A DNA stretch of 64,000 nucleotides from Betaproteobacteria bacterium (GTDB lineage: Bacteria > Pseudomonadota > Gammaproteobacteria > Burkholderiales > SG8-39), in assembly GCA_947476535.1 (NCBI GenBank), contig CANJRC010000006.1, positions 1-64,000 of the forward strand. The letters are read 5' to 3'. The notes beneath the pieces were generated by a model that saw only the letters and a list, made by a program, of their open reading frames with translations, was not told the DNA's origin and made no database searches. The translations under genes were made by a program, and so were the position numbers. Below are positions 38,605 through 58,392 of the stretch, piece after piece (the first letter of the stretch is position 1; every line of letters starts with the position of its first letter).

Positions 38605-38636
38605 TGTCGGCGGCACGCGGGAACGGATCGCCTGGT

Positions 38637-39530: not shown

Positions 39531-39555
39531 ATCGTTGTCATGTTTCCCATGTAAA

Positions 39556-39577
39556 TGTCATTGCATTTGCAATGACA
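39556..39577. promoter_or_regulatory. Perfect palindrome between psd and the aminotransferase gene
   Basis: TGTCATTGC (39556-39564) and GCAATGACA (39569-39577) form a perfect 9-bp inverted repeat around ATTT in the short gap between the divergent starts. Two further Pho-like heptamers occur at 39535 (TTGTCAT) and 39555 (ATGTCAT), but their 20-bp spacing does not fit a Pho box. It is a good operator candidate for a dimeric regulator controlling both directions. Confidence 0.55.
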
Positions 39578-39586
39578 GGATGCCCA

Positions 39587-41931: not shown

Positions 41932-42173
41932 GCGGTGTCCTTTTTGTGATTGATATATGAAACCCCAAGAAGGTTTTTACCGCGACAATGTGAAAGGAAG
42001 ATGACGGTGGGGATGAAACCGGGCGGTGATGGACGGACCGCTGGCCTGACTGCTGGCCTGGCTACGGACTAAACACGGATGGCAGTATTCATTCCGAAAG
42101 CGTATGAAGGATAAGGAAGGTATCCGTAAGATGGCAATATTAGTCCTTGCTATGACAACGACCGGCGTTGGCA

Positions 42174-43328
42174 CTACAAAATCCGCCGGCCCTCGCGCAG
42201 CACCTCATGCACCACCGGAATCCCGTGCGATTCCTGTACCCGGATGACATCGGCCCTGAGCCCCGCGCGGATTTCGCCGCGGTCGGGCAGGGTGGCCAAT
42301 GCGGCCGGCGTCGCCGACACGCTGGTCACGGCGCGCGGCAGGGTCCAGCCGGCGTCGCGCGTCAGGAGAAATGCCGCGTGCAAGAGGCTGGAGGGCACGT
42401 AGTCCGATGACAGGCAGTCGAGGAAGCCGGCGCTGGCGAGCTCGTGGGCGGAGATGTTCCCCGAGTGCGAGCCGCCGCGCACAACATTGGGGGCGCCCAT
42501 CATGACGGCAATCCCCCGCTGCTGGGCCGAGCGCGCGGCGACCATGGTGGTGGGGAACTCCGACAGCGTGATGCCCTCGCCCGCGGCTTCGGCCACATGC
42601 TCCGGCGTCGCATCGTCGTGGCTGGCGAGCGAGAGCATCTTCCCGCGGCAGCGCGCCACGATGGCGCGGCGATTGGCGGCGCTGAACTTTTCCTGGTTCT
42701 CTATCTGGCGCGCGGTGAAGTCGGCCATCTCCGTGTCGTTCAGGCCGTATTTTCCCTGGTAGTACTCGCGGTACTTGGCGAGCTCCACGAACTGGCGCTG
42801 GCCGGGGGTGTGGTCCATCAGCGACACCAGGCGCAGGCTGGGGTCCTGTGCCAGTCGGTCGAAGAGCTCGACGATGCCCTCGGTGGAAATTTCGCAGCGC
42901 AGGTGCAGCAGGTGTTCGGTGCGCAGCAGCTTCCTTTCTCGTGCCGTGTTGATCGCGGCCAGCATGCCATCGAGCTGGCCGGCACGGATGCCGCCGGGTT
43001 TGACTTCGCCCAGCGCCAGCGAGTCGAACACCGTGGTGATACCGGCCGCCGCCACCTGGGCATCATGCGCCAGCACCGCCGGCAATCCCGGCCAGTGGAC
43101 GCCGGGCCGCGGGCTGAAGTGTTTTTCCAGGTTGTCGGTGTGCAGCTCGACCAGACCGGGGAGCAGCCAGTGGCCATCCCAGTCCTCGGCGCCCTTGACT
43201 GCGGTGTTGCCGCTGTCCACCGCGGCGATGCGGCCACGGGAGAGCTTCACCGTGCCGTGTACGACTTCATTGCGCAGCACGATGCGCGCGTTGGCGATGA
43301 TGCGTTCGGGGGCGTGGGACGGTTTCAT
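42174..43328 (-). CDS. phnM: Alpha-D-ribose 1-methylphosphonate 5-triphosphate diphosphatase PhnM
   Basis: A 384-residue amidohydrolase-fold enzyme of the C-P lyase pathway that removes pyrophosphate from ribosyl alkylphosphonate triphosphate. The canonical PhnM stretch [21 protein letters not shown] gives the metal-binding His/Asp; [10 protein letters not shown] and [15 protein letters not shown] are also typical. It is last in the minus-strand phnG-H-I-J-GNAT-K-L-M operon and overlaps phnL by 4 bp. The 242 bp after its end show no clear terminator. A second, divergent PhnM is at 49942-51111. Confidence 0.93.
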
Positions 43329-44029
43329 GCCGCTTCCGGCAGTGCGGCGAGCGGATGGAGGCGCGTAGCGACCCGGCTGCGCACCTCGTCGTCATGGAAG
43401 ATGCCCACGATGGCGGCGCCTTCCCGCCTGGCATCGTCGATCATGTCCGCCACGACCGCGCGGTTGGCGGAGTCGAGCGCAGCCGTCGGTTCATCGAGCA
43501 ACAGCACCGGAAAGCGGCTGATGAAGCCGCGCGCGATGTTGACGCGCTGCTGCTCCCCTCCCGAGAAGGTGGCGGGGGGCAGCGACCAGAGCTTTGCGGG
43601 CACGTTCAGGCGCGCCAGCAGCGCGCCCGCACGCGACTCGGCATCCCGGCGCGCGACGCCCGCGCCGAGCAGGGGCTGCGCGACCAGCTCGAGTGCCGGC
43701 ACGCGCGGGATGACGCGCAGGAACTGGCTGACATAGCCGACGGTCTGGGCTCTTACGGCCAGCAGCTCCCGCGGGGCTGCATCCGCCAGGTTCACCCATT
43801 TGCCGGCATGGTGGATTTCAACGCTGCCGTGCTGGATGCGATAGTTGGCGTACAGCGAGCGCAGCAATGTGCTCTTGCCCGCGCCCGAGGGGCCGTGCAG
43901 GACCACGCACTCACCGCGCTGCACGTCGAGGTCGACGCAGTCAAGCACCGGCAGCCTGGCGCCGTTCTGGTGGTGCAGCACGAATGTCTTGCTCAGGCCT
44001 CGCACGCGCACCATGAGGTCTGCGGTCAT
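43325..44029 (-). CDS. phnL: C-P lyase system ATP-binding protein PhnL
   Basis: A 234-residue ABC-type ATPase: Walker [10 protein letters not shown] near 45-53, signature [15 protein letters not shown], Walker [13 protein letters not shown]. PhnL is needed with PhnGHIJK for making the 5-triphosphate ribosyl phosphonate. [23 protein letters not shown] is a PhnL-specific region. The ATG at 44029 follows phnK by 10 bp, and the stop overlaps phnM. Confidence 0.93.
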
Positions 44030-44039
44030 CGGTCTTCCT

Positions 44040-44867
44040 TCATGCCTGCAGCACCGATGAGACCAGCAGCTGCGTGTAGGGGTGTTGCGGATCGTCCAGC
44101 ACCTGGTCGGTGAGGCCGGATTCCACGACTTGGCCGGATTTCATGATGAGCAGTCGATGGGCGAGCAGCCGCGCCACCGCCAGGTCGTGGGTCACCACGA
44201 TGGCTGCAAGGCCTAGCTCGCTGGCGAGGCCGCGCAAGAGATCGAGCAGGCGTGCCTGCACGGACACATCGAGGCTGGCGGTAGGTTCATCCATGAACAT
44301 CAGGCGCGGGTGGGTGACGAGGTTGCGGGCGATCTGCAGGCGTTGCTGCATGCCGCCGGAGAAGGTCGCCGGCGCGTCGTCGATGCGCGACGTGTCGAGC
44401 TCGACGCGGTGCATCCAGTCCTCGGTGGTGTCGCGGATGCGGCCGTAGTGCCGGTCGCCGATGGCCATGAGCCGCTCGCCCACATTGGCGCCGGCGCTGA
44501 CGTCGATGCGCAGGCCGTCGCGCGGGTTCTGGTGCACGAAGCCCCAGTCGGTGCGGGCGAGGAGGCGCAGCCGCGCCTCTGACAGCCGGTAGATGTCGCG
44601 CAGGCCTTCGTGGCGCAGGTTGTATTCGACGGTGCCCGCGGTGGGCCGGCTGCGGCCGGCGATGCAATTGAGCAGCGTGGTCTTGCCGGAACCCGATTCG
44701 CCGGCAATGGCAAGCACCTCCCCCTGGTGCAAGTCGAAACTGACGTCCCGGCAGCCGGTGCGTTCGCCGTACAGCCGCGTCACGGCATTGACGCGCAGCA
44801 ACGGGGCGGATGCAAATTCAGGGGCTGATGTGGAAGCTGTAGCCATGTCGATCGAATCCGAGGTCAT
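44040..44867 (-). CDS. phnK: C-P lyase system ATP-binding protein PhnK
   Basis: A ~268-275-residue ABC-type ATPase that docks on the PhnGHIJ core. Walker [32 protein letters not shown] (PhnK hallmark), signature [15 protein letters not shown] and Walker [14 protein letters not shown] are present. The first ATG (44867) overlaps the preceding GNAT gene by 50 bp; a second in-frame ATG at 44846 has a better site and is equally likely. The N-terminus is longer than in typical PhnK (~252 residues). Confidence 0.92.
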
Positions 44868-45285
44868 CGTAGAACTGGTGCGCGCGCTCGCGCTTGAGGT
44901 TGCTGGAGAGCGCCAGCTTGTAGCAGCCGCGTTCGGCGCAGCGCGCGCGCGCGAATTCCATCATCCGGCGCCCGATGCCCTGGCTGCGGCACTCGGCTGC
45001 AACGACCACGTCCTCCACCACGCCCGACGGCGTGCCCAGGTGCGCGAGGTTGTCCATGATGAGCAGCGCGAAGGTGCCGACCACGGTGCCGTCCAGCACG
45101 GCCACATAGAGGTGGTAGTCGGGATACAGCGAGAAGCGCGCGAACACGCGCCGCGCCTCCTCGATGCCGAGCACCTGACCGTCGTCGAGCCCGGGCTGCG
45201 CGTACAGCGCCAGCACGGCGGCGAGGTCGGATTCGCCGGCTTCGCGGACGGTTACGGCGTTCGGTATTGCGGCGACTTGGCTCAA
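44818..45285 (-). CDS. GNAT-family N-acetyltransferase inside the C-P lyase operon
   Basis: A 155-residue acetyltransferase read from TTG at 45285, which lies 10 bp after the phnJ stop and has GAGG upstream. The GNAT fold is clear: VREAGESDLAAVLALY (strand 1), VVEDVVVAAECRSQGIGRRMM with the acetyl-CoA loop Q/R-x-x-G-x-G/R, and a C-terminal [16 protein letters not shown]. By position it may play the PhnO role (N-acetylation of aminoalkylphosphonates), although PhnO normally lies elsewhere in the operon. Substrate is inference. Confidence 0.8.
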   Translation of the reverse strand: MSQVAAIPNAVTVREAGESDLAAVLALYAQPGLDDGQVLGIEEARRVFARFSLYPDYHLYVAVLDGTVVGTFALLIMDNLAHLGTPSGVVEDVVVAAECRSQGIGRRMMEFARARCAERGCYKLALSSNLKRERAHQFYDDLGFDRHGYSFHISP

Positions 45286-45295
45286 GGCAGCAGCC

Positions 45296-46351
45296 TCATG
45301 AGGAAGCGGTTTCTGCCGGTTGCGCAGCGGGCGTGTCGGACACGCCGGGCACACCTGGCACGTTGGGGGACTGCTGGGACTGCTGCGCTGCTGCCGCATC
45401 GCCCCCATGGGCCTGCCCCGCGCGTCGCTGGCCGCAGTAGTCGGAATCCGAGCAGACAAACATGCGGCCGCCGGCGTCGTCGGTGACGATTTCGTCGAGG
45501 AAGCTGTCCTTGGAACCGCAGAATTCGCAGCACTCGTCCCAGGTCTGGATCTCGAAGGGGTGATCTTCGAAGTCCAGGCTCTCGACCTGCGTGTAGGGAG
45601 GGACGGCATAGATGCGCTTCTCGCGCCCGGCGCCGAAGAGCTGCAGCGCCGGGTTCATGTCCATTTTCGGGTTGTCGAATTTGGGGATGGGCGAGGGCCG
45701 CATCAGGTAGCGGCCGTTGACCCGCACCGGATAATCGTAAGTAGTGGCGATGTGCCCGTAGTGGGCAATGTCTTCATAGAGCTTCACGTGCATCAGGCCG
45801 TATTCCTCGAGGGCGTGCATGCGACGGGTTTCCGTTTCGCTGGGCTCCAGCCAGCGCAGCGGCTCCGGGATGGGCACCTGGTACACCAGGACCTGTCCTT
45901 CGGCCAGCGGCGTCTCGGGGATGCGGTGGCGCGTCTGGATGATGCTGGCGTCGGTGGTGCGCTCGGTGGTGGCCACGCCCGTGGTGGCGGCGAAGAAGCG
46001 CCGGATGTTGACCGCGTTGGTGGTGTCGTCGGAGCCCTGGTCGATGACTTTCAGGATGTCATCCGGTCCGATGATGGCGGCGGTGACCTGAATGCCGCCG
46101 GTGCCCCAGCCGTAGGGCAGCGGCATCTCGCGCGATCCGAAGGGCACCTGGTAGCCGGGAATGGCGACGGCCTTGAGGATGGCGCGCCGGATCATGCGCT
46201 TGGTCTGCTCGTCGAGGTAGGCGAAGTTGTAGCCTTGTGCGGTGACCGCCATTCCCTTTCTTTGGACGCTCGTCGTGCCGGCCGCGCCAGCCGGCGCTGA
46301 GTCGTCGGCATGCACGCCCACAACCTGGGCTGCGTGATCGGGGGAATTCAT
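45296..46351 (-). CDS. phnJ: Carbon-phosphorus lyase radical SAM enzyme PhnJ
   Basis: A 351-residue C-P bond-cleaving enzyme. The unusual radical SAM Cys cluster is intact: C275-x2-C278-x21-C300, with C306 following (CCEFCGS, FVCSDSDYCGQ). GWGTGGIQVTAAIIGPDD and QGSDDTTNAVNIRRFF are PhnJ-specific. It cleaves the alkyl-phosphonate bond of ribosyl phosphonate, releasing the alkane. Compared with the ~280-residue E. coli protein it has a ~33-residue N-terminal and a ~45-residue low-complexity C-terminal extension (Q/P/A-rich). The ATG overlaps the phnI stop by 4 bp. Confidence 0.95.
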   Translation of the reverse strand: MNSPDHAAQVVGVHADDSAPAGAAGTTSVQRKGMAVTAQGYNFAYLDEQTKRMIRRAILKAVAIPGYQVPFGSREMPLPYGWGTGGIQVTAAIIGPDDILKVIDQGSDDTTNAVNIRRFFAATTGVATTERTTDASIIQTRHRIPETPLAEGQVLVYQVPIPEPLRWLEPSETETRRMHALEEYGLMHVKLYEDIAHYGHIATTYDYPVRVNGRYLMRPSPIPKFDNPKMDMNPALQLFGAGREKRIYAVPPYTQVESLDFEDHPFEIQTWDECCEFCGSKDSFLDEIVTDDAGGRMFVCSDSDYCGQRRAGQAHGGDAAAAQQSQQSPNVPGVPGVSDTPAAQPAETASS

Positions 46352-47433
46352 GCGGCCTTGTCCTTTCGGGCATGTTCGGCGCGCAGTTTGCGGATCAGTT
46401 CCAGTTCGGACTGGAAGTCCACGTAATGCGGCAGCTTGAGGTGTTGCACGAAACCGGAGGCTTCGACGTTGTCGCTGTGATAGAGGACGAATTCTTCGTC
46501 CTGCGACGGCGACTTGACGGGCTCGCCCAGTTCGCGCGCGCGCAGGGACCGGTCGACCAGCGCCATCGCCATGGCCTTGCGCTCGCTGCCGCCGAACACC
46601 AGGCCATAGCCGCGCGTGAATTGCGGCGGCGTGTCTTCCGATCCGATGAACTTGTTCACCATCTGGCATTCAGTGACGGTGATGTCGCCGATGTTGATGG
46701 CAAAGCCCAGTTCTTCGGGTACCAGTTCGACTTCAACATCGCCCTGCCTGATCTCGCCGGCGAAGGGGTGGGAATTGGAATAGCCGCGCTGGGAGGAGTA
46801 GCCCAGGGCGAGCAGGAAGCCTTCATCGCCGCGGGCAAGGTTCTGCAGACGGGAATCGCGTCCCGCGGGGAAGTCGAGCGGCTCTCGCGTGAGATCGACC
46901 GGATCGGGATCCCCCGCGGCAGGACTCTCGGGCTGCATCAGGCCCTCGTGGCCGAGCAGATCGGTAACGCGGGGCATGCTGGCCGACACCGGTTCGGCAG
47001 CAACCGCCGCTTCCGGGCGTACGCCGTCGGCTGCCAGTGAAAAGTCCAGCAGGCGTTGCGTGTAGTCGTAGGTCGGTCCCAGCACCTGCCCGCCGGGCAG
47101 GTCCTTGAATGCGGCCGATATGCGCCGCTGCAACTGCATGCGCGAGGTGTCGATCGGCTGTGTGGCAGCCAGCCGCGGCAGGGTGGTGCGGTAGGCGCGC
47201 AGCAGGAAGATGGCCTCCACCAGGTCGCCTGCGGCCTGCTTGATGGCCAGTGCCGCCAGTTCCGGGTCATACAGCGACCCTTCGCCCATTACGCGGGCGA
47301 CGGCCAGTGGCATCTGGCCCGCGATCTGCGCCAGTGTGAGTTCGGGAACCGCCGGGTCGCCGCGGCGTGACTCGGCCAGCAGGCGCCACGAATTGGCGAT
47401 GGCGGTCTCGCCGCCCTTGACTGCTACGTACAT
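46348..47433 (-). CDS. phnI: C-P lyase core subunit PhnI
   Basis: A 361-residue nucleosidase/core subunit of the C-P lyase complex, which attaches phosphonate to the ribose of ATP with PhnG, PhnH and PhnL. MYVAVKGGETAIANSW at the N-terminus, GYSSQRGYSNSHPFAGEIRQGDVEVE and FVQHLKLPHYVDFQSELELI are diagnostic. The ATG at 47433 overlaps phnH by 10 bp and its stop overlaps phnJ by 4 bp. Confidence 0.95.
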   Translation of the reverse strand: MYVAVKGGETAIANSWRLLAESRRGDPAVPELTLAQIAGQMPLAVARVMGEGSLYDPELAALAIKQAAGDLVEAIFLLRAYRTTLPRLAATQPIDTSRMQLQRRISAAFKDLPGGQVLGPTYDYTQRLLDFSLAADGVRPEAAVAAEPVSASMPRVTDLLGHEGLMQPESPAAGDPDPVDLTREPLDFPAGRDSRLQNLARGDEGFLLALGYSSQRGYSNSHPFAGEIRQGDVEVELVPEELGFAINIGDITVTECQMVNKFIGSEDTPPQFTRGYGLVFGGSERKAMAMALVDRSLRARELGEPVKSPSQDEEFVLYHSDNVEASGFVQHLKLPHYVDFQSELELIRKLRAEHARKDKAA

Positions 47434-48071
47434 GTCATCTCCACCCGGGTTGTGCGTGGCAGGGCCGCGATGTCCGATCCGCAGATGAGCAGCACATCGA
47501 CCCCGCGCGGGAAAAGGGCGCCGTTGTCGCGCCATTCGGTCCAGAAACGCTCCGGGATGCCGGACGGCGCAAGTTGTTGGGTGTGCTTGATGCCCGGGCC
47601 TGACAATTGGACACGGCGCCCGGTACTCAAGCCGTCGACCTGAATGAGCAACGTAGTCGAACGGTCGGGGTAGTCGCTCAGGCCGGCACTGAACGCCGTC
47701 AGCGGCGGCATGTGCGCGGGCGCATGAATGACGGCGAAAGCTGCGAGCGCGGGGTCCGCGGCGAGTGGCGAGCTGCAATGAAAACGCAGGAACTGGGACA
47801 GCGACTCAGCGGCGTGCTCAGTTGCGTTCTCGATTGCGTGTGTATTCGCGTCCGTTGCAGCCTGTATCCAGACCGGCGTCTCGAAGTCGACCAGGGCCAG
47901 GCAGATGGCTGCCGTTGCCGGATGGAGCGGCGGCGGCGCGCCGATTGGCGTGCCGACATCGATGATGCGGCCGGGGTGCGACGTGGCCTCGAGCACGGCG
48001 CGAAAGCTGCGTTGGCTGTCGAACACCGGGTCGGAAAACCCGGCGTACAGGGTGTCGCCGGCGATCAGCAT
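47424..48071 (-). CDS. phnH: C-P lyase core subunit PhnH
   Basis: A 215-residue PhnH, an inactive PLP-transferase-fold subunit needed for core assembly. SDPVFDSQRSFRAVLEATSHPG is the family N-terminus, and GPGIKHTQQL and FPRGVDVLLI are near the end. The ATG at 48071 lies 34 bp after phnG. It overlaps phnI by 10 bp, consistent with tight coupling of the GHIJ core. Confidence 0.93.
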   Translation of the reverse strand: MLIAGDTLYAGFSDPVFDSQRSFRAVLEATSHPGRIIDVGTPIGAPPPLHPATAAICLALVDFETPVWIQAATDANTHAIENATEHAAESLSQFLRFHCSSPLAADPALAAFAVIHAPAHMPPLTAFSAGLSDYPDRSTTLLIQVDGLSTGRRVQLSGPGIKHTQQLAPSGIPERFWTEWRDNGALFPRGVDVLLICGSDIAALPRTTRVEMTCT

Positions 48072-48105
48072 GCGGGCAGTCCCATCGGCGAAGTCGTGGG
48101 CGATG

Positions 48106-48579
48106 TCATGGATTCTCGCCCCTGACTAGGGTGTAGAAATCGACTCGCGTGGCGGCGGCCTTGCGGCTTGCGTTGGTGCTTGCGGCGGCCTGTCGCGCAG
48201 CCAGTGGAAATACAACGTCGCGCTCGATTCGCGGGCGTGTCGTCTCATCCTGGAGCAGGGCGTCGAACAGCGCCGCCAGTTCCGCGCGCCGCCGGTCGCG
48301 CCCGAGGATGTAGGCAACGCCGGTCTTCGCATCGGCGGTGCGCAGCGTGCAGCGCGTGATGCTCGCTTCTCCGAGATTGAACTTGGCACCGCCGCCGCCG
48401 GCCCGTGCCCTCACCATCGCCAGCCCGGTCTCGGGGCGCCGCAGCCATTGATAGGCGGGCGGGCTCTCCAGTGACGACCACGCGGCTTCCAACTCCTCGC
48501 GGCTGGCCCTGGCAAGGATGGCCATCCAGTGGCGTCGCTCTGGCATTCCTGCCGCCGGGACTGGGGCCAGTTCAGTCAC
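48106..48579 (-). CDS. phnG: C-P lyase core subunit PhnG
   Basis: A 157-residue PhnG, first gene of the C-P lyase operon. RRHWMAILARASREEL opens the family and GAKFNLGEASITRCTLRT is its core. It lies at the start of an eight-gene minus-strand run and diverges from the 7-TM gene at 48930. No phnF regulator gene is present nearby; a Pho-box-like element at 48711-48728 is the best candidate control site. Confidence 0.93.
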   Translation of the reverse strand: MTELAPVPAAGMPERRHWMAILARASREELEAAWSSLESPPAYQWLRRPETGLAMVRARAGGGGAKFNLGEASITRCTLRTADAKTGVAYILGRDRRRAELAALFDALLQDETTRPRIERDVVFPLAARQAAASTNASRKAAATRVDFYTLVRGENP

Positions 48580-48846: not shown

Positions 48847-48891
48847 CCGTCACAAAACGGTCATGCAATGGTCATCAAAACATCACATGAT
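48847..48891 (+). promoter_or_regulatory. Tandem Pho-box-like promoter for the 7-TM/phnM2 operon
   Basis: Four heptamers at strict 11-bp steps: CCGTCAC (48847), CGGTCAT (48858), TGGTCAT (48869) and ACATCAC (48880). The middle two are the best matches to CTGTCAT. CATGAT at 48886-48891 starts 10 bp after the second good heptamer and can serve as -10, putting transcription about 30 bp before the ATG at 48930. Confidence 0.65.
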
Positions 48892-48906
48892 TTGGATGAT
48901 GGTCGA

Positions 48907-48924
48907 TGTCATGTCAACATGACA
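48907..48924. promoter_or_regulatory. Perfect palindrome in the leader of the 7-TM gene
   Basis: TGTCATGT (48907-48914) and ACATGACA (48917-48924) are perfect 8-bp inverted repeats with a 2-bp centre, ending 5 bp before the start codon. It contains Pho-like TGTCAT in both orientations, and could be an operator or a small hairpin covering the ribosome site (ACAGG). Confidence 0.5.
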
Positions 48925-48929
48925 GGCTC

Positions 48930-49832
48930 ATGTCATCCAATATCATTTTCTGGTGGTTTTCACTGTGCGGCGTGAGCGCGCTCAATGTGCTCGCCTGGTC
49001 GCTTTCCGCGGCCGCACTCAAGAGAAGAAGGCCGGCGCTGACCCGCGAAGTCTATGCGGCGCGACGACTGCAGGTTCTATTGTCTGCGGGCTATGTGTTC
49101 AGCTGCGCATTCCGTTCGGTGCTGCCGGTTTTCGATGTGCCGCGCATCGTGATGATCGACACCTGGCTCGCCAGCATCATCGTAGGCCGCTCGGTGGCGA
49201 CGATTGCCGAGCTGTGCTTCGCCATGCAATGGGCGTTGTTGCTACGGGAGCTTTCAAATGAAGCCAACAGCGCCCTGGGAAAGGCCGCATCGATAGCGAT
49301 GGTCCCGCTGATCGCCGTGGCCGAGGTCTGCTCCTGGTATTCAGTGCTGACCACATCCAATCTGGGTCATGTGTTCGAGGAAACTCTCTGGGCAGTCAGT
49401 GCGGCAATGCTGATCGTGAGCCTGGTTTCCGTTTGGTCGCGAAGCAACGCCAGGCTGCGTCCCGTGCTCGCCATCATCTGCGCCGCAGGCGTCGCCTATA
49501 TCGGATTCATGTTCCTGGTCGATGTGCCGATGTACTTTTCGCGCTGGATTGCCGACGAATCGGTTGGGCGCCAATACATGACCATCGCCCAAGGCGTGCT
49601 GGATGCGATGGAACGTCGCACCGTCTCCCACCGCTGGGAAGACTGGCAGGATGAAATCGTATGGATGTCGCTGTACTTCAGCGCCGCAGTGTGGCTCAGC
49701 ATCGCGCTGGCGCACGTGCCGAAATTCGAGCCCCCGGATGAGCGGACGAATATTCGATTCAACAATATTTCCCAGCCCAGTAGTTCCGACAAAGTCTTTC
49801 GGTCGTTGCGGTCCCTTGTCTTTAGGGGGTGA
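48930..49832 (+). CDS. Seven-transmembrane protein of unknown function, first gene of a Pho-box operon
   Basis: A 300-residue membrane protein with about seven hydrophobic helices (approx. 5-27, 48-68, 82-105, 122-140, 150-170, 178-205 and 250-270) and polar, Arg/Ser-rich cytoplasmic tail. Charged residues lie within or near helices (VATIAELCFAMQW, AVAEVCSWYS, HRWEDWQDEIVW), so it may be an enzyme, not only a channel. I do not recognise the family. The start MSSNIIFWWFSL has ACAGG upstream. It lies 109 bp before phnM2 and diverges from phnG; context suggests a role in phosphonate or phosphate-limited physiology. Confidence 0.75.
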   Translation: MSSNIIFWWFSLCGVSALNVLAWSLSAAALKRRRPALTREVYAARRLQVLLSAGYVFSCAFRSVLPVFDVPRIVMIDTWLASIIVGRSVATIAELCFAMQWALLLRELSNEANSALGKAASIAMVPLIAVAEVCSWYSVLTTSNLGHVFEETLWAVSAAMLIVSLVSVWSRSNARLRPVLAIICAAGVAYIGFMFLVDVPMYFSRWIADESVGRQYMTIAQGVLDAMERRTVSHRWEDWQDEIVWMSLYFSAAVWLSIALAHVPKFEPPDERTNIRFNNISQPSSSDKVFRSLRSLVFRG

Positions 49833-49941
49833 TGTCCTGAAGTCGCTTTGACGGCAGGTGAATTGCTTGCCCAGGCGATCGATGAAATATTCCTGTAACG
49901 CCCTTGCCATAGGCTCGCCTATTTTGGGCGGGCGCACATCA

Positions 49942-51111
49942 ATGAGCGGCGTATCGGAAATCACCGGGGTGGCTGGTGGCAGGGTGTTGCTTGCGGATGG
50001 CAGTTTCACAGTCACCGACATCCGGTTCGACGGTGGCAATATTGACGACATTGGCGGGGGACAAGCCCGGGGTAGCCTCAATGCAAACGGGATGCTCGTG
50101 CTTCCGGGCATTGTCGATATTCACGGCGATGCCTTCGAGCGCCAGGTGGCGCCGCGGCCCGAGGTGCAGTTTCCCCTGGCGATGGCCATGGCCGATACCG
50201 ATCGACAGCTGCTCTCCAATGGGATCACGACGGCATTTCACGGCGTCACCTGTTCATGGGAAGGGGGGTTGCGCGGCATCGATACTTCGCGAGCGCTGGT
50301 CCGGCACATTGCCTGCGCGCGAACCGAGGGATTGTTCGGCGCCGACAACCGTGTCCACCTGCGCTTCGAGAACCACAATCTCGAGGCAGTGGAGGAGGTC
50401 ATTGGCTGGCTGCAATCTGGCCAGGTCGATTTCCTGGCCTTCAACGACCACCTGCCGGGCATCGCTCGCAAGCTGGACGATCACGGTCGAATTGCCAAGT
50501 ACGCGGAGCGGGCCGGCGTGAGCGTCGTGCGCTTTCGGGAGATCCTGCAGGCATCTCGAGAGCGTGCCGGCGAGGTGCCGGCTGCGGTGCAGCGACTCTC
50601 CGCGGCTGCTCTGTTGCGTGATGTGCCCATGGCCTCGCATGACGACACGTCGCCGGAAGATCGCCGGCGCTACCAGTCTCTAGGATGCCGCATCGCGGAG
50701 TTCCCCATGGGGCGCGAAGCGGCGCTCGCGGCACGCGAACTCGACAACGCAGTGATCATGGGGGCGCCCAATGTCGTGCGCGGCGGGAGCCATATCAATG
50801 GCGTGCGCGCCGCCGACATGGTCGGTGAGGGCATCTGCACCGTGCTCGCATCCGATTATTTCTACCCAGCCGTGCTGGCCGCGCCATTCCTTCTCGCGAA
50901 TGCCGGCATCGCAACGCTGGCGGAGGCTTGGCGCCTGGTGTCGCGCAACCCGGCACGGGCGGCGGGTCTTGGGGATCGTGGCGAGATTGCCACCGGCCAG
51001 CGCGCGGATCTCATCCTGGTGGATGATTCGCAGCCCGCGATGCCACGTATCGTGGCGACGGTGGTGCACGGGAAGGCACGCCATGTGTCTCGGCACCTTG
51101 CCTTGCATTGA
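49942..51111 (+). CDS. phnM: Second, divergent PhnM-like amidohydrolase
   Basis: A 389-residue amidohydrolase related to PhnM but of another branch. The first metal motif is VDIHGDAFERQVAPRPEVQF, not [28 protein letters not shown] and [17 protein letters not shown] keep the PhnM framework. The start at 49942 (MSGVSEITG) is preferred to upstream ATGs because the amidohydrolase strand begins shortly after, though its ribosome site is weak. It is followed after 15 bp by a DUF1045 gene. It may act on another ribosyl phosphonate or a related phosphoanhydride. Confidence 0.85.
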   Translation: MSGVSEITGVAGGRVLLADGSFTVTDIRFDGGNIDDIGGGQARGSLNANGMLVLPGIVDIHGDAFERQVAPRPEVQFPLAMAMADTDRQLLSNGITTAFHGVTCSWEGGLRGIDTSRALVRHIACARTEGLFGADNRVHLRFENHNLEAVEEVIGWLQSGQVDFLAFNDHLPGIARKLDDHGRIAKYAERAGVSVVRFREILQASRERAGEVPAAVQRLSAAALLRDVPMASHDDTSPEDRRRYQSLGCRIAEFPMGREAALAARELDNAVIMGAPNVVRGGSHINGVRAADMVGEGICTVLASDYFYPAVLAAPFLLANAGIATLAEAWRLVSRNPARAAGLGDRGEIATGQRADLILVDDSQPAMPRIVATVVHGKARHVSRHLALH

Positions 51112-51126
51112 AGAGAACGGCCGAAC

Positions 51127-51906
51127 ATGACGAGCGCTGATGCTGAAGCGGCAGGTGTGTCGGAGGGCGCGTTCCGGTATGCCGTGTATTTCGCTCCGCC
51201 CCCGGATAGCGAATGGTGGGATTTCGGCTGCACGTGGCTGGGCCGGGATCCCATCAGCGGCCTTGCAAGCGCGCAATCGCAGATTCCCGCCGTTTCTGCG
51301 GAGGATATTGCGGATTTAACGGCCGATCCCAGGCGGTACGGTTTTCATGCAACTCTGAAGCCGCCCTTTGCTTTGGTGGCCGAATGCAGTCGAGCCGATT
51401 TCCATGCAGCGGTGTCGGCGCTGGCCTGCCAGCAAACGGCATTTTCACTCGGCCGCCTGGAGGCGACCCGGCTTGGACGCTTCATCGCGTTATGTCCCCG
51501 CACGGTCAACGGGCCATTGCAGGAACTCGCTCGGGCCTGCGTCAAGGAACTTGATTCGTTTCGCAAGCGTGCTGGGGCGCAGGACGTGGCGCTTCGCCGC
51601 GGTGCGAACTTGAGCGCAAGGCAGGACGCCTTGCTTGCGCGCTGGGGCTATCCCTATGTGCTGGACGAGTGGCGGTTCCATATGACACTCACCCGCAGCC
51701 TTTTTCTCGGGGAAGAGTCGTCCTTGCTCGAATGGCTTCGGCCACGGATTGAGCGCCTGAATGCCTCGCCATTGTTGGTCGATGCACTCTGTGTCTTCGA
51801 GGAGCCGGCGCGTGGCGCGCCGTTTCGGCTAACACGGCGGTTCGGATTCGATGGCAGCGTGCGGGAGTACGCGATGAGCGAGGCTAGCCTATCGTCTCGA
51901 GGGTAA
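51127..51906 (+). CDS. DUF1045 phosphonate-operon protein, 2H phosphoesterase superfamily
   Basis: A 259-residue cytoplasmic protein of the DUF1045 family, usually found in C-P lyase operons. Two H-x-T motifs define a 2H phosphoesterase active site: YGFHATLKPP (His 74, Thr 76) and WRFHMTLTRS (His 185, Thr 187). Such enzymes open cyclic phosphodiesters, so it may process the 1,2- or 1,5-cyclic ribose phosphate made by PhnJ, the job of PhnP/PhnN in other species; neither is seen in this window. It overlaps the convergent phnZ-like gene by 23 bp. Confidence 0.85.
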   Translation: MTSADAEAAGVSEGAFRYAVYFAPPPDSEWWDFGCTWLGRDPISGLASAQSQIPAVSAEDIADLTADPRRYGFHATLKPPFALVAECSRADFHAAVSALACQQTAFSLGRLEATRLGRFIALCPRTVNGPLQELARACVKELDSFRKRAGAQDVALRRGANLSARQDALLARWGYPYVLDEWRFHMTLTRSLFLGEESSLLEWLRPRIERLNASPLLVDALCVFEEPARGAPFRLTRRFGFDGSVREYAMSEASLSSRG

Positions 51907-52447
51907 GTTGGCTCTCTTGCATGACCTCGGCAAAGTGCGATAGTGACGGAGTCTTCAGCCCCGGTAACTTGGCGGCATCGTCCCATCGGCGCAGCATGAC
52001 CGAGTCCTGCGCGAACGGCTGGTCCATGAAGCTTTGCGCCTCGGCCGGCGAGTAGATGCCGCCCTGCAGTTCGAGGCTGCGCTTGGATGCGGGCGACAAC
52101 GCTTCCCAGTAACCGGGCTCGACGGCGCACAGGTAGCGCTTGGCGTCGACATGCAGCCGTATGGGGGACAGAACCGACTCCGGAAACAGGTTGCGCAGGA
52201 AGGGTAGTGCGATGAACTGATGGACGTCGTCCACACCCTGCGCCGCCGGGTCGTCTCCGAGGGAGTGCAACAGGTGGCCAAGGTCGTGCAACAGCGCAGC
52301 CGTGACGAGGGACGGTGGCACCTGCGCTCGTTCGGCATGCGCGGCACATTGCAATGCATGTTCGAGTTGGTTCACTGGCTCCGCGCCGTACTGATTGTCG
52401 CCGCGTTCTTCGAATAGCGCCACGATTTGTTCGATGGAAAGGCTCAT
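51884..52447 (-). CDS. phnZ: PhnZ-like HD-domain mixed-valent di-iron oxygenase
   Basis: A 187-residue HD-domain protein closely resembling PhnZ, which cleaves the C-P bond of 1-hydroxyphosphonates with O2. The PhnZ stretch VNQLEHALQCA is nearly intact, the substrate-gating Tyr 20 and Glu 23 precede it, and the metal ligands are all in place: His 30, His 54, Asp 55, His 76, His 99 and Asp 156 (RRWDDAAK). SKRSLELQGG is also shared. It is the last gene of the phnCDE operon, 10 bp after phnE. No PhnY-type hydroxylase occurs in the window, so it may act on preformed hydroxyphosphonates. Confidence 0.85.
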   Translation of the reverse strand: MSLSIEQIVALFEERGDNQYGAEPVNQLEHALQCAAHAERAQVPPSLVTAALLHDLGHLLHSLGDDPAAQGVDDVHQFIALPFLRNLFPESVLSPIRLHVDAKRYLCAVEPGYWEALSPASKRSLELQGGIYSPAEAQSFMDQPFAQDSVMLRRWDDAAKLPGLKTPSLSHFAEVMQESQLTLETIG

Positions 52448-52457
52448 TAGTTTTTCC

Positions 52458-53264
52458 CTAGATGAACAGTTTGCGTATGCGTGCCGACAGGAGGTCGATC
52501 ACGCTGACCGTCACGACGATGATGATCATGACCGCGCACGTTTGTGCGTAATAGAAACCACGGATTATTTCCCACAGGACGACCCCGATTCCACCGGCAC
52601 CCACCATGCCGACGACGGTTGCCGAGCGCACGTTGGACTCGAAGCGGTACAACGTGTAGGAGATCCACAGGGGCAGGACCTGGGGAATGACCCCGAACAC
52701 CACTTCTTCCAGGGTGCTGGCACCGGTGGAGCGGATGCCTTCGACGGGTTGGGGGTCGATGGCTTCGACGGCTTCGGAAAACAGTTTGGCGAGGATGCCG
52801 GTGGTGTGGATGAACAGCGCGAGCACGCCCGCAAAAGGGCCGAGGCCGACGGCGACGACAAAGAGCATCGCGAACACCATTTCGTTGATGGCGCGCGCCG
52901 CATCCATCAGTCGACGCATTGGCTGGTAGACCCACCAGGGCACGATATTAGCCGAACAGAGCAGCCCGCACGGTACGGCGAGCAGGACTGCCAGCGCCGT
53001 TCCCCAGATGGCGATCTGCAGGGTGACCAGCATTTCGTCGATGTACACCTTCCACTCGCGAAAATCCGGCGGAAAGAAGTCGGATGCATAGGTGGCCATA
53101 TTGCCGGAATACTTGAGCAGGTCTGCCGGCCGCATGTCGGCCCCCTTCCATGAGGCTGCCAGGACAGCGAGCAGGAGACCCCAGGCAATCAGTTGCCACA
53201 GATTCTGCTTGGCGATGCCCCCGGCGGCGTCGGGCATGGGGCGCGCGTGAACATGATCATTCAT
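52458..53264 (-). CDS. phnE: Phosphonate ABC transporter permease PhnE
   Basis: A 268-residue inner-membrane permease with about six hydrophobic helices. [21 protein letters not shown] and [24 protein letters not shown] are typical PhnE segments; [24 protein letters not shown] carries the EAA-like loop contacting the ATPase. It works with PhnC and PhnD in phosphonate or phosphite uptake. The preceding phnD is separated by an intrinsic terminator (53276-53303), which should lower phnE and phnZ expression. Confidence 0.93.
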
Positions 53265-53275
53265 ACGAGATTCCT

Positions 53276-53303
53276 AAAAAAAAGACGGCCCGAAGACCGC
53301 CTT
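53276..53303 (-). terminator. Rho-independent terminator/attenuator between phnD and phnE
   Basis: On the minus strand AAGGCGGTC, loop TTCG, GGCCGTCTT forms a 9-bp stem with two G-U pairs, capped by a stable UUCG tetraloop and followed by a run of eight T. It is textbook in form, lies immediately after the phnD stop (53324) and 12 bp before phnE, so readthrough sets the receptor:permease ratio. Confidence 0.88.
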
Positions 53304-53323
53304 GAAGTGTTGCCCCTGCTTTC

Positions 53324-54304
53324 CTATTTCAGCGACGCGAGCTGCTGGTTGAGTTCCGCCAGCTTCCTGTTGATGTCGTCGAGCAATTTCTGGCGCTCGG
53401 TGGCGTTCATGGCGGTGTCGTTCTCCAGCTTGGTCTTGTCCTTGAACAGTTCGAGCTGGCGCGTGGGGATGAGCTGGGTGTTGTTGGAGTCCTTGAACCC
53501 CTTGTAGGTCAGCTTGGCAAGGATGGCGAGCTCACGCGGCGCATCGCTGCCCTTGCCGTAGTTGAGGAAGAACTGCTTGATCTTCGCCCTGGCGTCGGCA
53601 TCGAGGTCCTTGCGCCAGACCATGGGGTCGGACGGAATCAGGGGAGACTTCCAGATGGCCCGCACGTCCTTGATCTTCTCCGGGAAGCGTGCCTCGAACT
53701 TTTCCCAGTTTTCCGTATTGTTGGTGGCCACATCGATCTGCTTGTTGGCCACGGCCATCATGTTGGTCTCGTGATTGGCCGAGCGAACGGACTTGAAGAG
53801 CGCTTTCGGGTCCGCTTTGTTGAGAGCGAACACGTAGTAGCCGGGGACCAGGAACCCGGAGGTCGAATTCGGGTCGCCGATGCCGAAGTTGATGTTTTTT
53901 CCGCTCTTGAGCACGTCCTCGAGGGACTTGTAGGGACTGTCCTTGTGGGTGATCAGCAGCGAATAGTAACCAAGCGATCCGTCGGCATACACGATTTGCG
54001 CGAACACCTCGCCACTGGCGCGGTCAACCGCCTCCATGCCGGACTTGTTTCCCATCCACGCCAGGTGCACCTTGTTGAAACGCATGCCTTCGATGACGCC
54101 GGCATAGTCGGGCGCAAAGAAGGGGTTGACCTTGGCGCCGAGGCGCTTGGACATGTCATCGATGAGCGGTTGCCAGTCCTGCTTGAGGTTTTGCGAGGAT
54201 TCGGTGGCTATGATTCCGAAATTGAGCTCTTTGGGCATTTCAGCGCCGGCTGGCGCCGCGATGGCGGCCAGTACGGTGCATGCTGCGAGGTGCTTGCGTA
54301 GCAT
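53324..54304 (-). CDS. phnD: Phosphonate-binding periplasmic protein PhnD
   Basis: A 326-residue secreted receptor of the PhnCDE importer. Signal peptide LAACTVLAAIAAPAGA is followed by EMPKELNFGIIATESSQNLKQDW. NKVHLAWMGNKSGMEAV and GDPNSTSGFLVPGYYVF form the phosphonate-binding sites of the type II fold. The ATG at 54304 has GGAG 9 nt upstream; a GTG at 54319 is also open. The last ~25 residues form a charged helix (DDINRKLAELNQQLASL) typical of PhnD. It follows phnC by 33 bp. Confidence 0.93.
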   Translation of the reverse strand: MLRKHLAACTVLAAIAAPAGAEMPKELNFGIIATESSQNLKQDWQPLIDDMSKRLGAKVNPFFAPDYAGVIEGMRFNKVHLAWMGNKSGMEAVDRASGEVFAQIVYADGSLGYYSLLITHKDSPYKSLEDVLKSGKNINFGIGDPNSTSGFLVPGYYVFALNKADPKALFKSVRSANHETNMMAVANKQIDVATNNTENWEKFEARFPEKIKDVRAIWKSPLIPSDPMVWRKDLDADARAKIKQFFLNYGKGSDAPRELAILAKLTYKGFKDSNNTQLIPTRQLELFKDKTKLENDTAMNATERQKLLDDINRKLAELNQQLASLK

Positions 54305-54337
54305 TGGATTGATCTCCACGGTTAAAAAAGGGGGGGC

Positions 54338-55222
54338 TTAGATCGCTCGCGCCTCTACCGAGGCAGCGTGTCTTGCAGTAGCAAGTGGCGGTTCCACATA
54401 GACCCGATGCTGGAACACGGGTACGGGAGCGTGCGCGGCGTGAGGGTGGAGCACTTCCTCCGCCTCGGCGCCATACAGCTCTCGCAACAGCACGGGCGTG
54501 AGCGCGCTCGATGCGCCGTCGTAGACCACCCGACCTCGGTGCAAGGCAACGGTGCGCGGGCAGTACTTGATGGCGACATCCACCTGGTGAAGCGACACCA
54601 ATACCGTCGTCCCATCTTCCCGGTTAATGCGCGAGAGCAGGTCCATCACCTTGCGCGAGGACTCCGGGTCGAGCGAGGCGATCGGTTCGTCGGCGAGAAT
54701 GACACTGGCTTTCTGCACGAGCGTGCGCGCAATCGCCGCGCGCTGCTGCTGGCCGCCAGACAGCGTCGAGGCGCGCTGCAGTGCGCGTTCGGCCATTCCC
54801 ACGCGTTCAAGCGCCTCCAGCCCGAGGCGGATCTCATCGTGGGTGAAGTGCTTGATGGTGCTGCGCCAGGTTGGAATTCGGTGCAGCATGCCTGCGAGGA
54901 CGTTGGTGATGACAGGAAGCCGGTTGACCAGGTTGAATTGCTGGAAGACGAAGCCGATACCGGCCCGGATATCGCGAACGTCAGGTGCGAGCCGGCCTCC
55001 GGATTGGACGGTGCGTCCGCCAACGACGATGCGTGAAGCCGCGGTGGAACTGTCGGCCTTCGCTAGCCCCGCGACGTGGCGCAGCATGGTGGATTTTCCG
55101 GAACCCGAGGCACCGATCAGGGCGACAATTTCACCCTTGCCGACGGACAGGTTGACATCGTCCAGTGCCTTGGCCTGTCCGAATGTCCTGGTCAGCCTGC
55201 TGATGGAAATCGTTTCGTTCAT
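54338..55222 (-). CDS. phnC: Phosphonate ABC transporter ATP-binding protein PhnC
   Basis: A 294-residue ABC ATPase with Walker [31 protein letters not shown] (PhnC-specific), signature [15 protein letters not shown] and Walker [13 protein letters not shown]. It energises PhnE. The start at 55222 ([10 protein letters not shown]) fits family length; the frame is open much further upstream with no homology. It is the first gene of the minus-strand phnC-D-E-Z operon. The 284-bp gap to the divergent cNMP gene should hold its promoter, but I see only weak Pho-like repeats in that orientation. Confidence 0.93.
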
Positions 55223-55448
55223 GGTCTGTTCTCGATGTGCGTGTTGGGGGCTGGGAATGGAGGCAGTGTGTATTTGCATTGTTACGTTGGCGTGAAGGAT
55301 TTGTTTCGCGGGAAAGACAACATGGTCTGGTTGACGTTGGGGGCTGCCATCATTCATGCGAGCCTGTGGGAGAGTCCTATTCGTGTAACGGGTGCGCAAC
55401 CTGTACCAGCTATCTTCTGGCGAGGTGCCGATTCGCTGACCATAGCGA

Positions 55449-55918: not shown

Positions 55919-56851
55919 ATGAGTACCGAAAACTCCGCGTCTTCGGAAGATATCTACCGCCGTATTCACCGGGATGTGCTCGACAGCCTGGATGAAGAGC
56001 TGGAAATGGAGCTCGATGACCGTATTGTGCCGGGCGCGAGCGATGCGGCAACGAATGCCGCAAGTGCTGAGCAATCCCGCGCGCAGCGGATTCTCTACTT
56101 CCGCGAGCTGTTCCGATTGCAGGGGGAGCTGGTCAAACTGCAGGACTGGGTGCAGCACACGGGCCACAAGATGGTCATTCTCTTCGAGGGGCGCGATGCC
56201 GCCGGGAAGGGCGGTGTCATCAAGCGCATCACGCAGCGCCTCAATCCGCGCGTGTGCCGGGTGGCTGCACTGCCGGCGCCCAACGACCGGGAGCGCACGC
56301 AGTGGTATTTCCAGCGTTATGTATCGCATTTGCCGGCAGCCGGCGAAATGGTCTTGTTCGACCGCAGCTGGTACAACCGCGCTGGCGTCGAGCGCGTCAT
56401 GGGATTCTGCAATGACGAGCAGTACGAGGAATTCTTCCGCAGCGTGCCGGAGTTCGAGAAGATGCTGGTGCGCTCGGGCGTGCAGTTGGTCAAGTACTGG
56501 TTCTCTATCACGGATGAGGAACAGGAACTGCGCTTCCATGGTCGTATCCACGATCGCCTGAAGCAATGGAAGCTCAGCCCGATGGATCTCGAATCGCGCC
56601 GGCGCTGGGAGAACTACACGCGTGCAAAGGAGGTCATGCTGGAGCGTACGCATATCCCCGAAGCGCCATGGTGGGTGGTGCAGGCGGTTGACAAGAAGAA
56701 GGCCCGATTGAACTGCATCCATCACCTGCTCAGTCAGGTGCCCTACGCAGAAGTGGAGCACGAGACGGTCGTGCTTCCCCCGCGCGAGCGCCACGCGAAT
56801 TACCGGCGCAGCCCGGTACCACCGGAGCTGCTCGTCCCCGAAATCTATTGA
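55919..56851 (+). CDS. ppk2: Polyphosphate kinase 2 (PPK2)
   Basis: A 310-residue PPK2-family kinase that transfers phosphate between polyphosphate and nucleotides. Walker A GRDAAGKGG at 91-99, lid module DRSWYNRAGVERVMGF from 148 and RRWENYTRAKEVML are diagnostic of a single-domain PPK2. The acidic N-terminus (DSLDEELEMELDD) is typical of class I enzymes, which favour GDP or ADP phosphorylation. It is cotranscribed with the cNMP-domain gene behind a Pho-box-like promoter, linking it to phosphate limitation. Confidence 0.92.
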   Translation: MSTENSASSEDIYRRIHRDVLDSLDEELEMELDDRIVPGASDAATNAASAEQSRAQRILYFRELFRLQGELVKLQDWVQHTGHKMVILFEGRDAAGKGGVIKRITQRLNPRVCRVAALPAPNDRERTQWYFQRYVSHLPAAGEMVLFDRSWYNRAGVERVMGFCNDEQYEEFFRSVPEFEKMLVRSGVQLVKYWFSITDEEQELRFHGRIHDRLKQWKLSPMDLESRRRWENYTRAKEVMLERTHIPEAPWWVVQAVDKKKARLNCIHHLLSQVPYAEVEHETVVLPPRERHANYRRSPVPPELLVPEIY

Positions 56852-56914: not shown

Positions 56915-56946
56915 CCGCTCAGAGAGTGGAACCGCTCAGAGAGTGG
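56915..56946. repeat. 15-bp direct repeat, two copies
   Basis: CCGCTCAGAGAGTGG occurs at 56915-56929 and 56932-56946, separated by AA. It lies in the 199-bp gap between ppk2 and the first SnoaL-like gene. No function is evident. Confidence 0.85.
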
Positions 56947-57050
56947 CCGCCCTAACGGCCGGGCGCTTGCGGGCTTGTGACGCCGTTCGGTCGTTCATGG
57001 TAAGTTTCCCCGGCAACCAACAAACGCAACCGGAACAGGGGGATTCGCAA

Positions 57051-57449
57051 ATGCCGATCAGTTTGCAAGACAAGCTGGATATCATCGAGCTGGCCGCACG
57101 CTATTCATTCACCATCGACCGTCGTATGGCGGAGGAGTGGGCGGATTGCTTTACCGAGGACGGCCTGATGATTTCGGGCAATGGCAACCGCGTGGAGGGG
57201 CGCGCAGCCTTCATCGAGCACATGCGCAAGGCCAAGGCCTCCGGCAAGCAGGTGCGCCACTGGGGATGCAATCACATCGTCGAGGGTGAGGGCGATACGG
57301 CGCGCCTGCGCATGTACCTGATGGCGGTGGACATCGGCAATGGCATCTCGCCCTATGTGATGGGTGACTATGACGACACCGTCGTCAAAGTCAATGGGAA
57401 GTGGAAATTCAAGGTGCGGCGCGTCAATTTTGCCGCGGGCGGCATCTAG
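57051..57449 (+). CDS. SnoaL-like (NTF2-fold) protein, paralog 1
   Basis: A 132-residue single-domain NTF2-like protein. DKLDIIELAARYSFTIDRRMAEEWADCFTEDG is the classical helix-helix start, and VRHWGCNHIVEGEGDTARLRMYL is the sheet. GGGGGATTCGCAA precedes the ATG at 57051; an upstream extension is open but not homologous. First of three adjacent paralogs. The fold hosts isomerases, dehydratases and small binding proteins, and the pocket-facing Asp/His (D18 and H of the RHW motif) could be catalytic. Function unknown. Confidence 0.82.
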   Translation: MPISLQDKLDIIELAARYSFTIDRRMAEEWADCFTEDGLMISGNGNRVEGRAAFIEHMRKAKASGKQVRHWGCNHIVEGEGDTARLRMYLMAVDIGNGISPYVMGDYDDTVVKVNGKWKFKVRRVNFAAGGI

Positions 57450-57504
57450 TGCCGTCCAGAACCGTCACCGCCCATAGGGCTGGGCTGAGAAATGGGAGAA
57501 GACA

Positions 57505-57924
57505 GTGGATTTGAGTGCATCGGATGAATTCGAGATCATCGAGCTGGTGGCACGCTACAACTATGCCATTGATCACCGTCGCGCCGAAGAATGGGCCGAT
57601 GTATTTTCACCGGATGGCGAATTGTGGGCCGACGGAAAACTGCGGGCGGGAGGCAGGCCGGCGCTGGTGGAGCATATTGGAAAGGCCGAGCGAACTGGCC
57701 AGAAGATACGCCATTGGCCTTGCAATCCGGTGATCGAGGGAAAAGGCGATCGGGCGCGGCTTCGCATGTACGTCCTGGCCTACGACATCACGAATGGCAT
57801 TCGTCCCCAGATCCTGGCCGAGTATGACGATGAACTGGTGAAGCTCGACGGTCATTGGAAATTCACGGTGCGTCGCGTCACCGCCTGCGGCGGCGACTGG
57901 CCCGTGCACGTCCAGAGCAAATGA
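57505..57924 (+). CDS. SnoaL-like (NTF2-fold) protein, paralog 2
   Basis: A 139-residue NTF2-like protein starting at GTG 57505 with GGGAGAAG upstream. ELVARYNYAIDHRRAEEWADVFSPDGEL and IRHWPCNPVIEGKGDRARLRMY align along the whole length with paralogs 1 and 3. The His after AIDH replaces Arg of paralog 1. The 55-bp gap to paralog 1 suggests one transcript. Confidence 0.82.
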   Translation: MDLSASDEFEIIELVARYNYAIDHRRAEEWADVFSPDGELWADGKLRAGGRPALVEHIGKAERTGQKIRHWPCNPVIEGKGDRARLRMYVLAYDITNGIRPQILAEYDDELVKLDGHWKFTVRRVTACGGDWPVHVQSK

Positions 57925-57969
57925 TGCCGTGGGTTGTTGAGTTGTTATCAATATGGATTGGGAGGCCTC

Positions 57970-58392
57970 GTGGCGATTACTTCTGAAGACAGGATTGAGA
58001 TCATGGAGTTGGCGTCTCGCTACAACCATGCCATCGACCATCGCCGTGCAGAGGAGTGGGCAGACCTGTTCACCGACGACGGGAAGTTCATGGCCTATGG
58101 CGAGTGCCGGGCCCAGGGGCGGGCGCAACTGGTGGCCTACATCCACAAGGCGGCAGCGGCCGGGCACAAGAGCCGGCACTGGACCTCCAACGCCGTCATC
58201 GAGGGGGATGGCGATGCCGCTCGGCTGAAGCTCTACGTCATGGCCATCGATATCTCCGAGGGCATTCGACCCTACATCATGGGCGAATATGACGACAGCC
58301 TTGTGAAGGTCGGGGGGCATTGGAAATTCAAGGAGCGCAACGTCACCCTGTGTGCAGGGAAATCCTGGACACAGGGCGGACTGTCGAAATAG
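57970..58392 (+). CDS. SnoaL-like (NTF2-fold) protein, paralog 3
   Basis: A 140-residue NTF2-like protein starting at GTG 57970 with TGGGAGGCCTC upstream. ASRYNHAIDHRRAEEWADLFTDDGKF and SRHWTSNAVIEGDGDAARLKLY are shared with paralogs 1 and 2; it is closest to paralog 2 in the AIDHRRAEEWAD segment. It ends the triplet and is followed by the phytase-like pseudogene on the other strand. Confidence 0.82.
   Translation: MAITSEDRIEIMELASRYNHAIDHRRAEEWADLFTDDGKFMAYGECRAQGRAQLVAYIHKAAAAGHKSRHWTSNAVIEGDGDAARLKLYVMAIDISEGIRPYIMGEYDDSLVKVGGHWKFKERNVTLCAGKSWTQGGLSK

Follow-up and report, generated by a model that had tools for sequence, protein, structure and literature searches.

The 7-TM protein encoded at positions 48930–49832 of the window, the whole 64,000-nucleotide stretch of DNA that was analysed, is, on sequence grounds, not a phosphonate protein: it belongs to an unnamed family that is Pho-linked and partners a lipid-remodelling module. 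The association of the protein with this module, which comprises a phosphatidylserine decarboxylase-like protein (PSD), an aminotransferase (AT3), an Mpo1-like protein, a GT4 glycosyltransferase and often a PlcP-like phospholipase, was strong. The reading that we favour, with modest confidence, is that of a Pho-regulon accessory of the membrane-lipid remodelling module with a predicted periplasm-facing pocket for a lipid head group. It draws on the conservation of the family, on its Pho boxes, on the dependence of the gene on the module from one genome to the next, on the predicted fold and topology, and on the one-sided position of the invariant polar residues. The 7-TM gene and the module genes of the window were as follows:

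37267–38703, minus strand: GT4 glycosyltransferase of the lipid module (ORF; the true start is probably further downstream)
38637–39530, minus strand: PSD, phosphatidylserine decarboxylase-like protein (PF02666, E = 1e-58)
39572–41323, plus strand: AT3, class-III PLP aminotransferase with a hydrophobic N-terminal segment, conserved in the module (PF00202, E = 1e-33)
41311–41931, minus strand: Mpo1-like (DUF962-type) membrane protein (PF06127, E = 7e-5, just below the cut-off)
48930–49832, plus strand: 7-TM protein of an unnamed family (300 aa, open frame, seven predicted helices)
59055–60035, minus strand: PlcP-like metallophosphoesterase (phospholipase C-type)
60010–60957, minus strand: BtaB-like methyltransferase (ORF; start over-extended into btaA)
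60747–61970, minus strand: BtaA-like DUF3419 protein of betaine lipid synthesis (PF11899, E = 6e-110)

The lipid module bracketed the phosphonate (phn) genes, with 37267–41931 on one side and PlcP, BtaB and BtaA (59055–61970) on the other, the latter group being followed by an alkaline phosphatase ORF. The phn genes are an insertion within a phosphate-starvation island. Related genomes (L143, L144) had the gene inventory of the window in a rearranged order. PSD copies in the module loci were 56–69% identical. Beyond the window (L151), PPK1, PhoU and PPX-like ORFs were seen, named by homology to the reference set or by eye.

The first-pass annotation had described the 7-TM protein as polytopic and of no recognised family. 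This was borne out by the profile search of 48930–49832, which matched no family, and by structure prediction, which gave a seven-helix bundle. Queried as a single sequence, the protein had zero matches in Pfam, NCBIfam, PHROGs and PDB sequences; an 18-member alignment had none in Pfam, NCBIfam and PDB sequences. No enzyme family in the family libraries searched was matched, and no homologs were found in plasmid, phage and IMG/VR searches. As far as sequence comparison reaches, the family is nameless in the databases searched. Homologs aligned from the ATG at 48930 through 49832, with 36–88% identity in the alignment, and 31 positions were invariant across 39 sequences. The copy in the sister genome (L012) was 88% identical to that of the window, and the two genes differed by 24, 16 and 47 changes at codon positions 1, 2 and 3, respectively. 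Codon position 3 changed most, as expected for a gene under selection. The family was well conserved, yet sparsely distributed (39 loci studied): carriers made up 7 of 349 genomes of the order sampled and 16 of 120 genomes of one family in another class. It was also found in 10 of 61 relatives, a count that takes in weak partial hits. Three weak partial hits (G157, G278 and G636) were judged spurious.

Pho boxes were scored against 60 simulated windows matched to the window in dinucleotide content:

48847–48886, plus strand: four half-sites in 11-bp register (CCGTCACAAAACGGTCATGCAATGGTCATCAAAACATCAC), ahead of the 7-TM gene; 0/60 simulated windows as high
38548–38587, minus strand: four half-sites, ahead of the probable glycosyltransferase start; 0/60 simulated windows as high
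39524–39541, plus strand: two half-sites, in the PSD/AT3 gap; weak alone, reached in 12/60 simulated windows
41990–42007, minus strand: two half-sites, ahead of the Mpo1-like gene; weak alone, reached in 27/60 simulated windows
62570–62609, plus strand: strong box of four half-sites, ahead of the alkaline phosphatase ORF

The Pho box that the first-pass annotation had placed ahead of the 7-TM, phnM2 and DUF1045 genes was thereby confirmed, and it was conserved in the sister genome. Across genomes, scores from an approximate PhoB matrix were higher upstream of the genes for the 7-TM protein (p = 6e-10), AT3 (p = 3e-11), Mpo1 (p = 6e-8) and the glycosyltransferase GT_A (p = 3.5e-12) than upstream of the remaining genes at these loci, 509 in number (Mann-Whitney). 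The p-values overstate certainty since the related sequences are not independent. Examples upstream of the family were CTGTCATATAACTGTCAT in L041 and CTGTAATAATTCTGTCAT in L084. Stand-alone 7-TM genes of a Bradyrhizobium-like genus also had Pho-box-like sites.

When neighbours were clustered at 40 loci, the recurrent neighbours of the 7-TM gene were Mpo1-like, PSD, AT3 and GT4 glycosyltransferase genes. Mpo1, PSD and AT3 each lay within 7 kb of it in 9 of the 40 loci (the Mpo1 count includes the window), and some loci had a PlcP-like metallophosphoesterase, PssA, PmtA, LplT, PhoU or PstS nearby. Tight gene pairs were formed with PSD (L071, L072, L076), PssA (L074) and a glycosyltransferase (L019). 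With the Mpo1-like protein as the marker of the module, all seven carriers in the order sample were among the Mpo1-positive genomes (37/349; Fisher p = 8.7e-8, by genus 6e-7), as were all 16 carriers in the sample of the other-class family (22/120; p = 2.4e-15, by genus 5e-7). The module locus was read in 23 carrier genomes and contained AT3 and Mpo1 in all 23 and PSD in 22. There was one clear exception to this co-occurrence, an Elusimicrobia MAG that carried the 7-TM gene and had no Mpo1 match. Twenty further Mpo1 loci, with no 7-TM gene in the stretches read, all carried PSD-AT3-Mpo1, usually together with a glycosyltransferase and in several cases with PmtA, a PlcP-like protein or LplT. 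The 7-TM gene was missing from 30/37 Mpo1-module genomes in the order sample and from 6/22 in the other family; its absence from most module genomes of the order indicates that the module can do without it. Of 71 genomes with the module or the 7-TM gene, just 12 had BtaA, and a role specific to BtaA or betaine lipids was rejected on this count.

The AlphaFold2 model of the 7-TM protein was confident and had seven helices (pLDDT 89.1, pTM 0.83), and a Foldseek search with it against the PDB returned nothing significant (best E = 0.05). The loop charges fitted a predicted N-out/C-in topology. Given this orientation, conservation decreased across the membrane from the periplasm towards the cytoplasm (Spearman −0.33, p = 3e-6). 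R62, D69, R72, R87, E94, E132, E150, D198 and R205 were invariant and E242 nearly so (95% conserved in the larger set), and in the predicted topology these ten most conserved charged residues all fall in the outer half or an outer loop. The invariant charged residues are thereby modelled as a cluster at the predicted periplasmic side of the bundle, topology and pocket being taken from the model. Acidic and histidine residues near the helices had been pointed out at first. The acidic part held, as acidic residues were among the invariant types, but no histidine was invariant in the 39 sequences (two columns had histidine in about two thirds of them), arginine and tryptophan being invariant instead. 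The suggestion that conserved polar residues could form an active site was right as a possibility. In Zn-dependent 7-TM hydrolases of the alkaline ceramidase/PAQR type, conserved histidines hold zinc; this identity was rejected because the family has no invariant histidine.

A periplasm-facing pocket of acidic residues and arginines would suit a zwitterionic lipid head group, and the tight pairing of the 7-TM gene with PSD and PssA points in the same direction. The protein, as modelled, probably handles a lipid head group via this predicted polar pocket. When phosphate is scarce, PhoB would be expected to switch on the lipid module. PlcP would strip head groups off phospholipids, and lipids to replace them would be made by the glycosyltransferase, the aminotransferase and, in this genome, BtaA and BtaB. 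Within the inner membrane, the 7-TM protein would form a bundle of seven helices arranged as in rhodopsins, with invariant Glu/Asp and Arg side chains lining a pocket open to the periplasm, where an amine could be held by the acidic residues and a phosphate by the arginines. The protein would bind an outer-leaflet (amino)lipid by its head group and then process or move it. The lipid substrate, the enzymatic or flipping action and the regulation in vivo are what we infer here. An intramembrane hydrolase had been suggested by the first-pass annotation; this could stand as an intramembrane enzyme, now for lipids, while its phosphonate part was not upheld.

A predicted fold like that of the 7-TM protein was found in A0A5J6VIR5, an uncharacterised protein from a Megaviridae environmental sample (Foldseek E = 5.5e-14, TM-score 0.85 on the target, 26% identity). 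Judged by the models, it is likely a homolog of the family in giant viruses, and the shared predicted fold suggests that the family probably reaches beyond bacteria. Quite tentatively, the 7-TM protein, with relatives in giant viruses, may represent a new class of membrane-embedded enzyme that acts on lipids, is built on a rhodopsin-like scaffold, has a pocket of acidic residues and arginines towards the periplasm and completes an undescribed Pho-regulated pathway for phosphorus-free or phosphorus-sparing aminolipids (PSD, AT3, Mpo1-like, glycosyltransferase) in proteobacteria.

Instead of an enzyme, the protein could be a lipid flippase or an exporter, carrying the module's product over the inner membrane. 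Its polytopic nature and its link to lipid synthesis genes would agree with this, and a transporter that others can replace would explain why many module genomes lack it. However, the invariant polar residues lie on one side of the bundle and form no transmembrane path, and the cytoplasmic quarter is the least conserved part of the bundle, so that we consider transport an unlikely function.

A different explanation of the genomic pattern is that the protein is a general Pho-regulon membrane protein whose co-occurrence with the module reflects a shared low-phosphate lifestyle. In keeping with this, the 7-TM gene was far from the module in most Bradyrhizobium-type genomes and had its own Pho box. 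The pairwise identities of the 7-TM and module proteins also did not mirror each other closely (Spearman 0.15–0.32). This explanation is nevertheless rather improbable, given that the gene was strictly nested inside module-positive genomes of two classes while toggling within genera, and that it was repeatedly and independently paired with PSD, PssA and glycosyltransferase genes.

We give still less weight to a rhodopsin-like or receptor-like sensor of lipid or phosphate state, that is, a retinal-less opsin relative. The best 50 VIA-align rows of the model were almost all microbial rhodopsins (Z 13.4–14.2, rmsd 3.4–4.2, 198–228 residues; top match Z 14.2 with 206 residues at 3.5 Å), although a Z of about 14 lies in the grey zone for helical bundles. 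The Foldseek and VIA-align readings on folds cover the best 50 matches, and other 7-TM enzyme folds are possible below these. Microbial rhodopsins (PF01036) resemble the modelled 7-TM protein in the number of helices, in the predicted N-out/C-in topology and, within that grey zone and with a Foldseek E not below 0.05, in how the helices are arranged. They differ from it in their Schiff-base lysine and invariant residues, and the 7-TM family is set apart by its linkage to lipid genes. A lysine in the core of helix 7 (the retinal Schiff base) was absent from all 39 sequences, and the 7-TM profile aligned to nine collected rhodopsins with an hhalign probability of 2.5%, with no Pfam rhodopsin match either. 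Homology to rhodopsins was rejected on the hhalign result and the missing lysine, and the architectural likeness was kept. No signalling domain or partner gene accompanied the 7-TM protein.

The 7-TM gene of the window lies among the following phosphonate genes:

42174–48579, minus strand: C-P lyase operon phnG-H-I-J-GNAT-K-L-M1, separating the lipid module from the 7-TM gene and divergent from the latter
49942–51111, plus strand: phnM2 of the PRK15446.2-3 subfamily (NF011987, 466 bits against a cut-off of 253)
51127–51906, plus strand: DUF1045/TIGR03223 phosphonate-operon protein, 2H-type (264.6 bits against a cut-off of 248.95; PF06299, E = 1e-51)
51884–52447, minus strand: PhnZ-like HD-domain oxygenase (TIGR03276)
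52458–55225, minus strand: phosphonate ABC transporter PhnE, PhnD and PhnC

This arrangement, with phnM2 and the DUF1045 2H protein downstream of the 7-TM gene and a divergent C-P lyase operon, was as the first-pass annotation had described it. A conserved operon with phnM2 and DUF1045 was not confirmed: phn genes neighboured the 7-TM gene in only 3 of 39 loci (the window, L012 and L020), and in L012 about 5.3 kb with two other large, unrelated ORFs separated the gene from phnM2. The same neighbour count speaks against a constant co-occurrence with phnM2 and DUF1045, which adjoin the 7-TM gene in the window, are unrelated to it in sequence and have no conserved adjacency to it. A PhnJ match was absent from 14 of 27 carrier genomes, including every Burkholderiales carrier tested outside the window's family, and was fragmentary in a fifteenth. 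A part in phosphonate catabolism, with the gene expressed together with phnM2 and DUF1045 and the protein acting as a transporter or as an intramembrane hydrolase of an intermediate of the C-P lyase pathway, would fit the location of the gene, which has the C-P lyase operon on one side and phnM2 on the other in the window and in L012 and which adjoins the phn operon in L020. It would also fit the Pho linkage of all these genes, but is very improbable in light of the unrelated ORFs in the sister genome, the 3/39 neighbour count and the PhnJ absences, and on the latter two a phosphonate role was rejected. Export of a phosphonate-pathway product, also proposed at first, found no support. The neighbourhood of phn genes was not conserved, yet the protein is still phosphorus-related through the Pho-linked lipid module. 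The gene order of one island made a lipid gene resemble a phosphonate gene, a tempting misreading that is corrected here.

Phosphate-starved bacteria swap phospholipids for phosphorus-free lipids, and for several of these we know of no biosynthetic genes. Lipid remodelling by PlcP-Agt and PlcP-BtaA-BtaB under phosphate starvation is established (PMC4796936, PMC9239053). These systems share Pho-box-preceded clusters of PlcP-like and GT4 genes with the loci described here, and BtaA and BtaB with the window. In contrast, the plcP neighbours that PMC4796936 describes in its text include neither the PSD, AT3 and Mpo1-like core nor the 7-TM protein, and no description of this set or of the 7-TM family was found in the literature searched (subscription papers and supplements lay outside its coverage). 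The genes recur as a co-occurring, Pho-box-preceded set, joined by an unnamed membrane protein, in both alpha- and betaproteobacteria, among them soil bacteria that resemble Bradyrhizobium. The PSD/AT3/Mpo1/GT4/7-TM set provides a concrete gene list for lipid genetics, and the 7-TM family probably helps bacteria to rebuild their membranes once phosphate runs out.

The 7-TM gene of locus L020, one of three such loci flanked by phn genes, began 22 bases downstream of a phosphodiesterase-like ORF (GpdQ-like by eye), which in turn adjoined ABC-transporter-like ORFs. These surroundings are another phosphorus-scavenging context.

L020, about 7184-8950: 7-TM gene and upstream phosphodiesterase-like ORF

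The C-P lyase operon of the window (42174-48579) contained a GNAT ORF between phnJ and phnK. Neither phnN nor phnP was seen near this operon; in their place, the window carried DUF1045 and a second phnM.

Three consecutive window genes, encoding PlcP-like (phospholipase C-type metallophosphoesterase), BtaB-like and BtaA-like proteins, had the same arrangement as known betaine-lipid genes and lay beside two further genes.

55919-56851: PPK2-like gene
59055-61970: PlcP-like, BtaB-like and BtaA-like genes
from about 62.7 kb: alkaline phosphatase ORF

Three small, mutually similar ORFs in tandem (56943-58392) shared the motif 'RR.AEEWAD.F'; they are apparently tandem duplicates and, judged by eye, putatively SnoaL-like.

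A putatively lipid-making set of genes for phosphatidylserine decarboxylase, a class-III aminotransferase, an Mpo1-like (DUF962-type) membrane protein and a GT4 glycosyltransferase recurred at window 37267-41931 and in other genomes (loci L096-L115), with Pho boxes and often with PlcP-like or PmtA. A literature search found no published description of this set.

Two viral proteins in BFVD, A0A5J6VIR5 (from a Megaviridae environmental sample) and V5LM17, shared their predicted fold with the 7-TM protein, which suggests that the family extends to giant viruses or their hosts.
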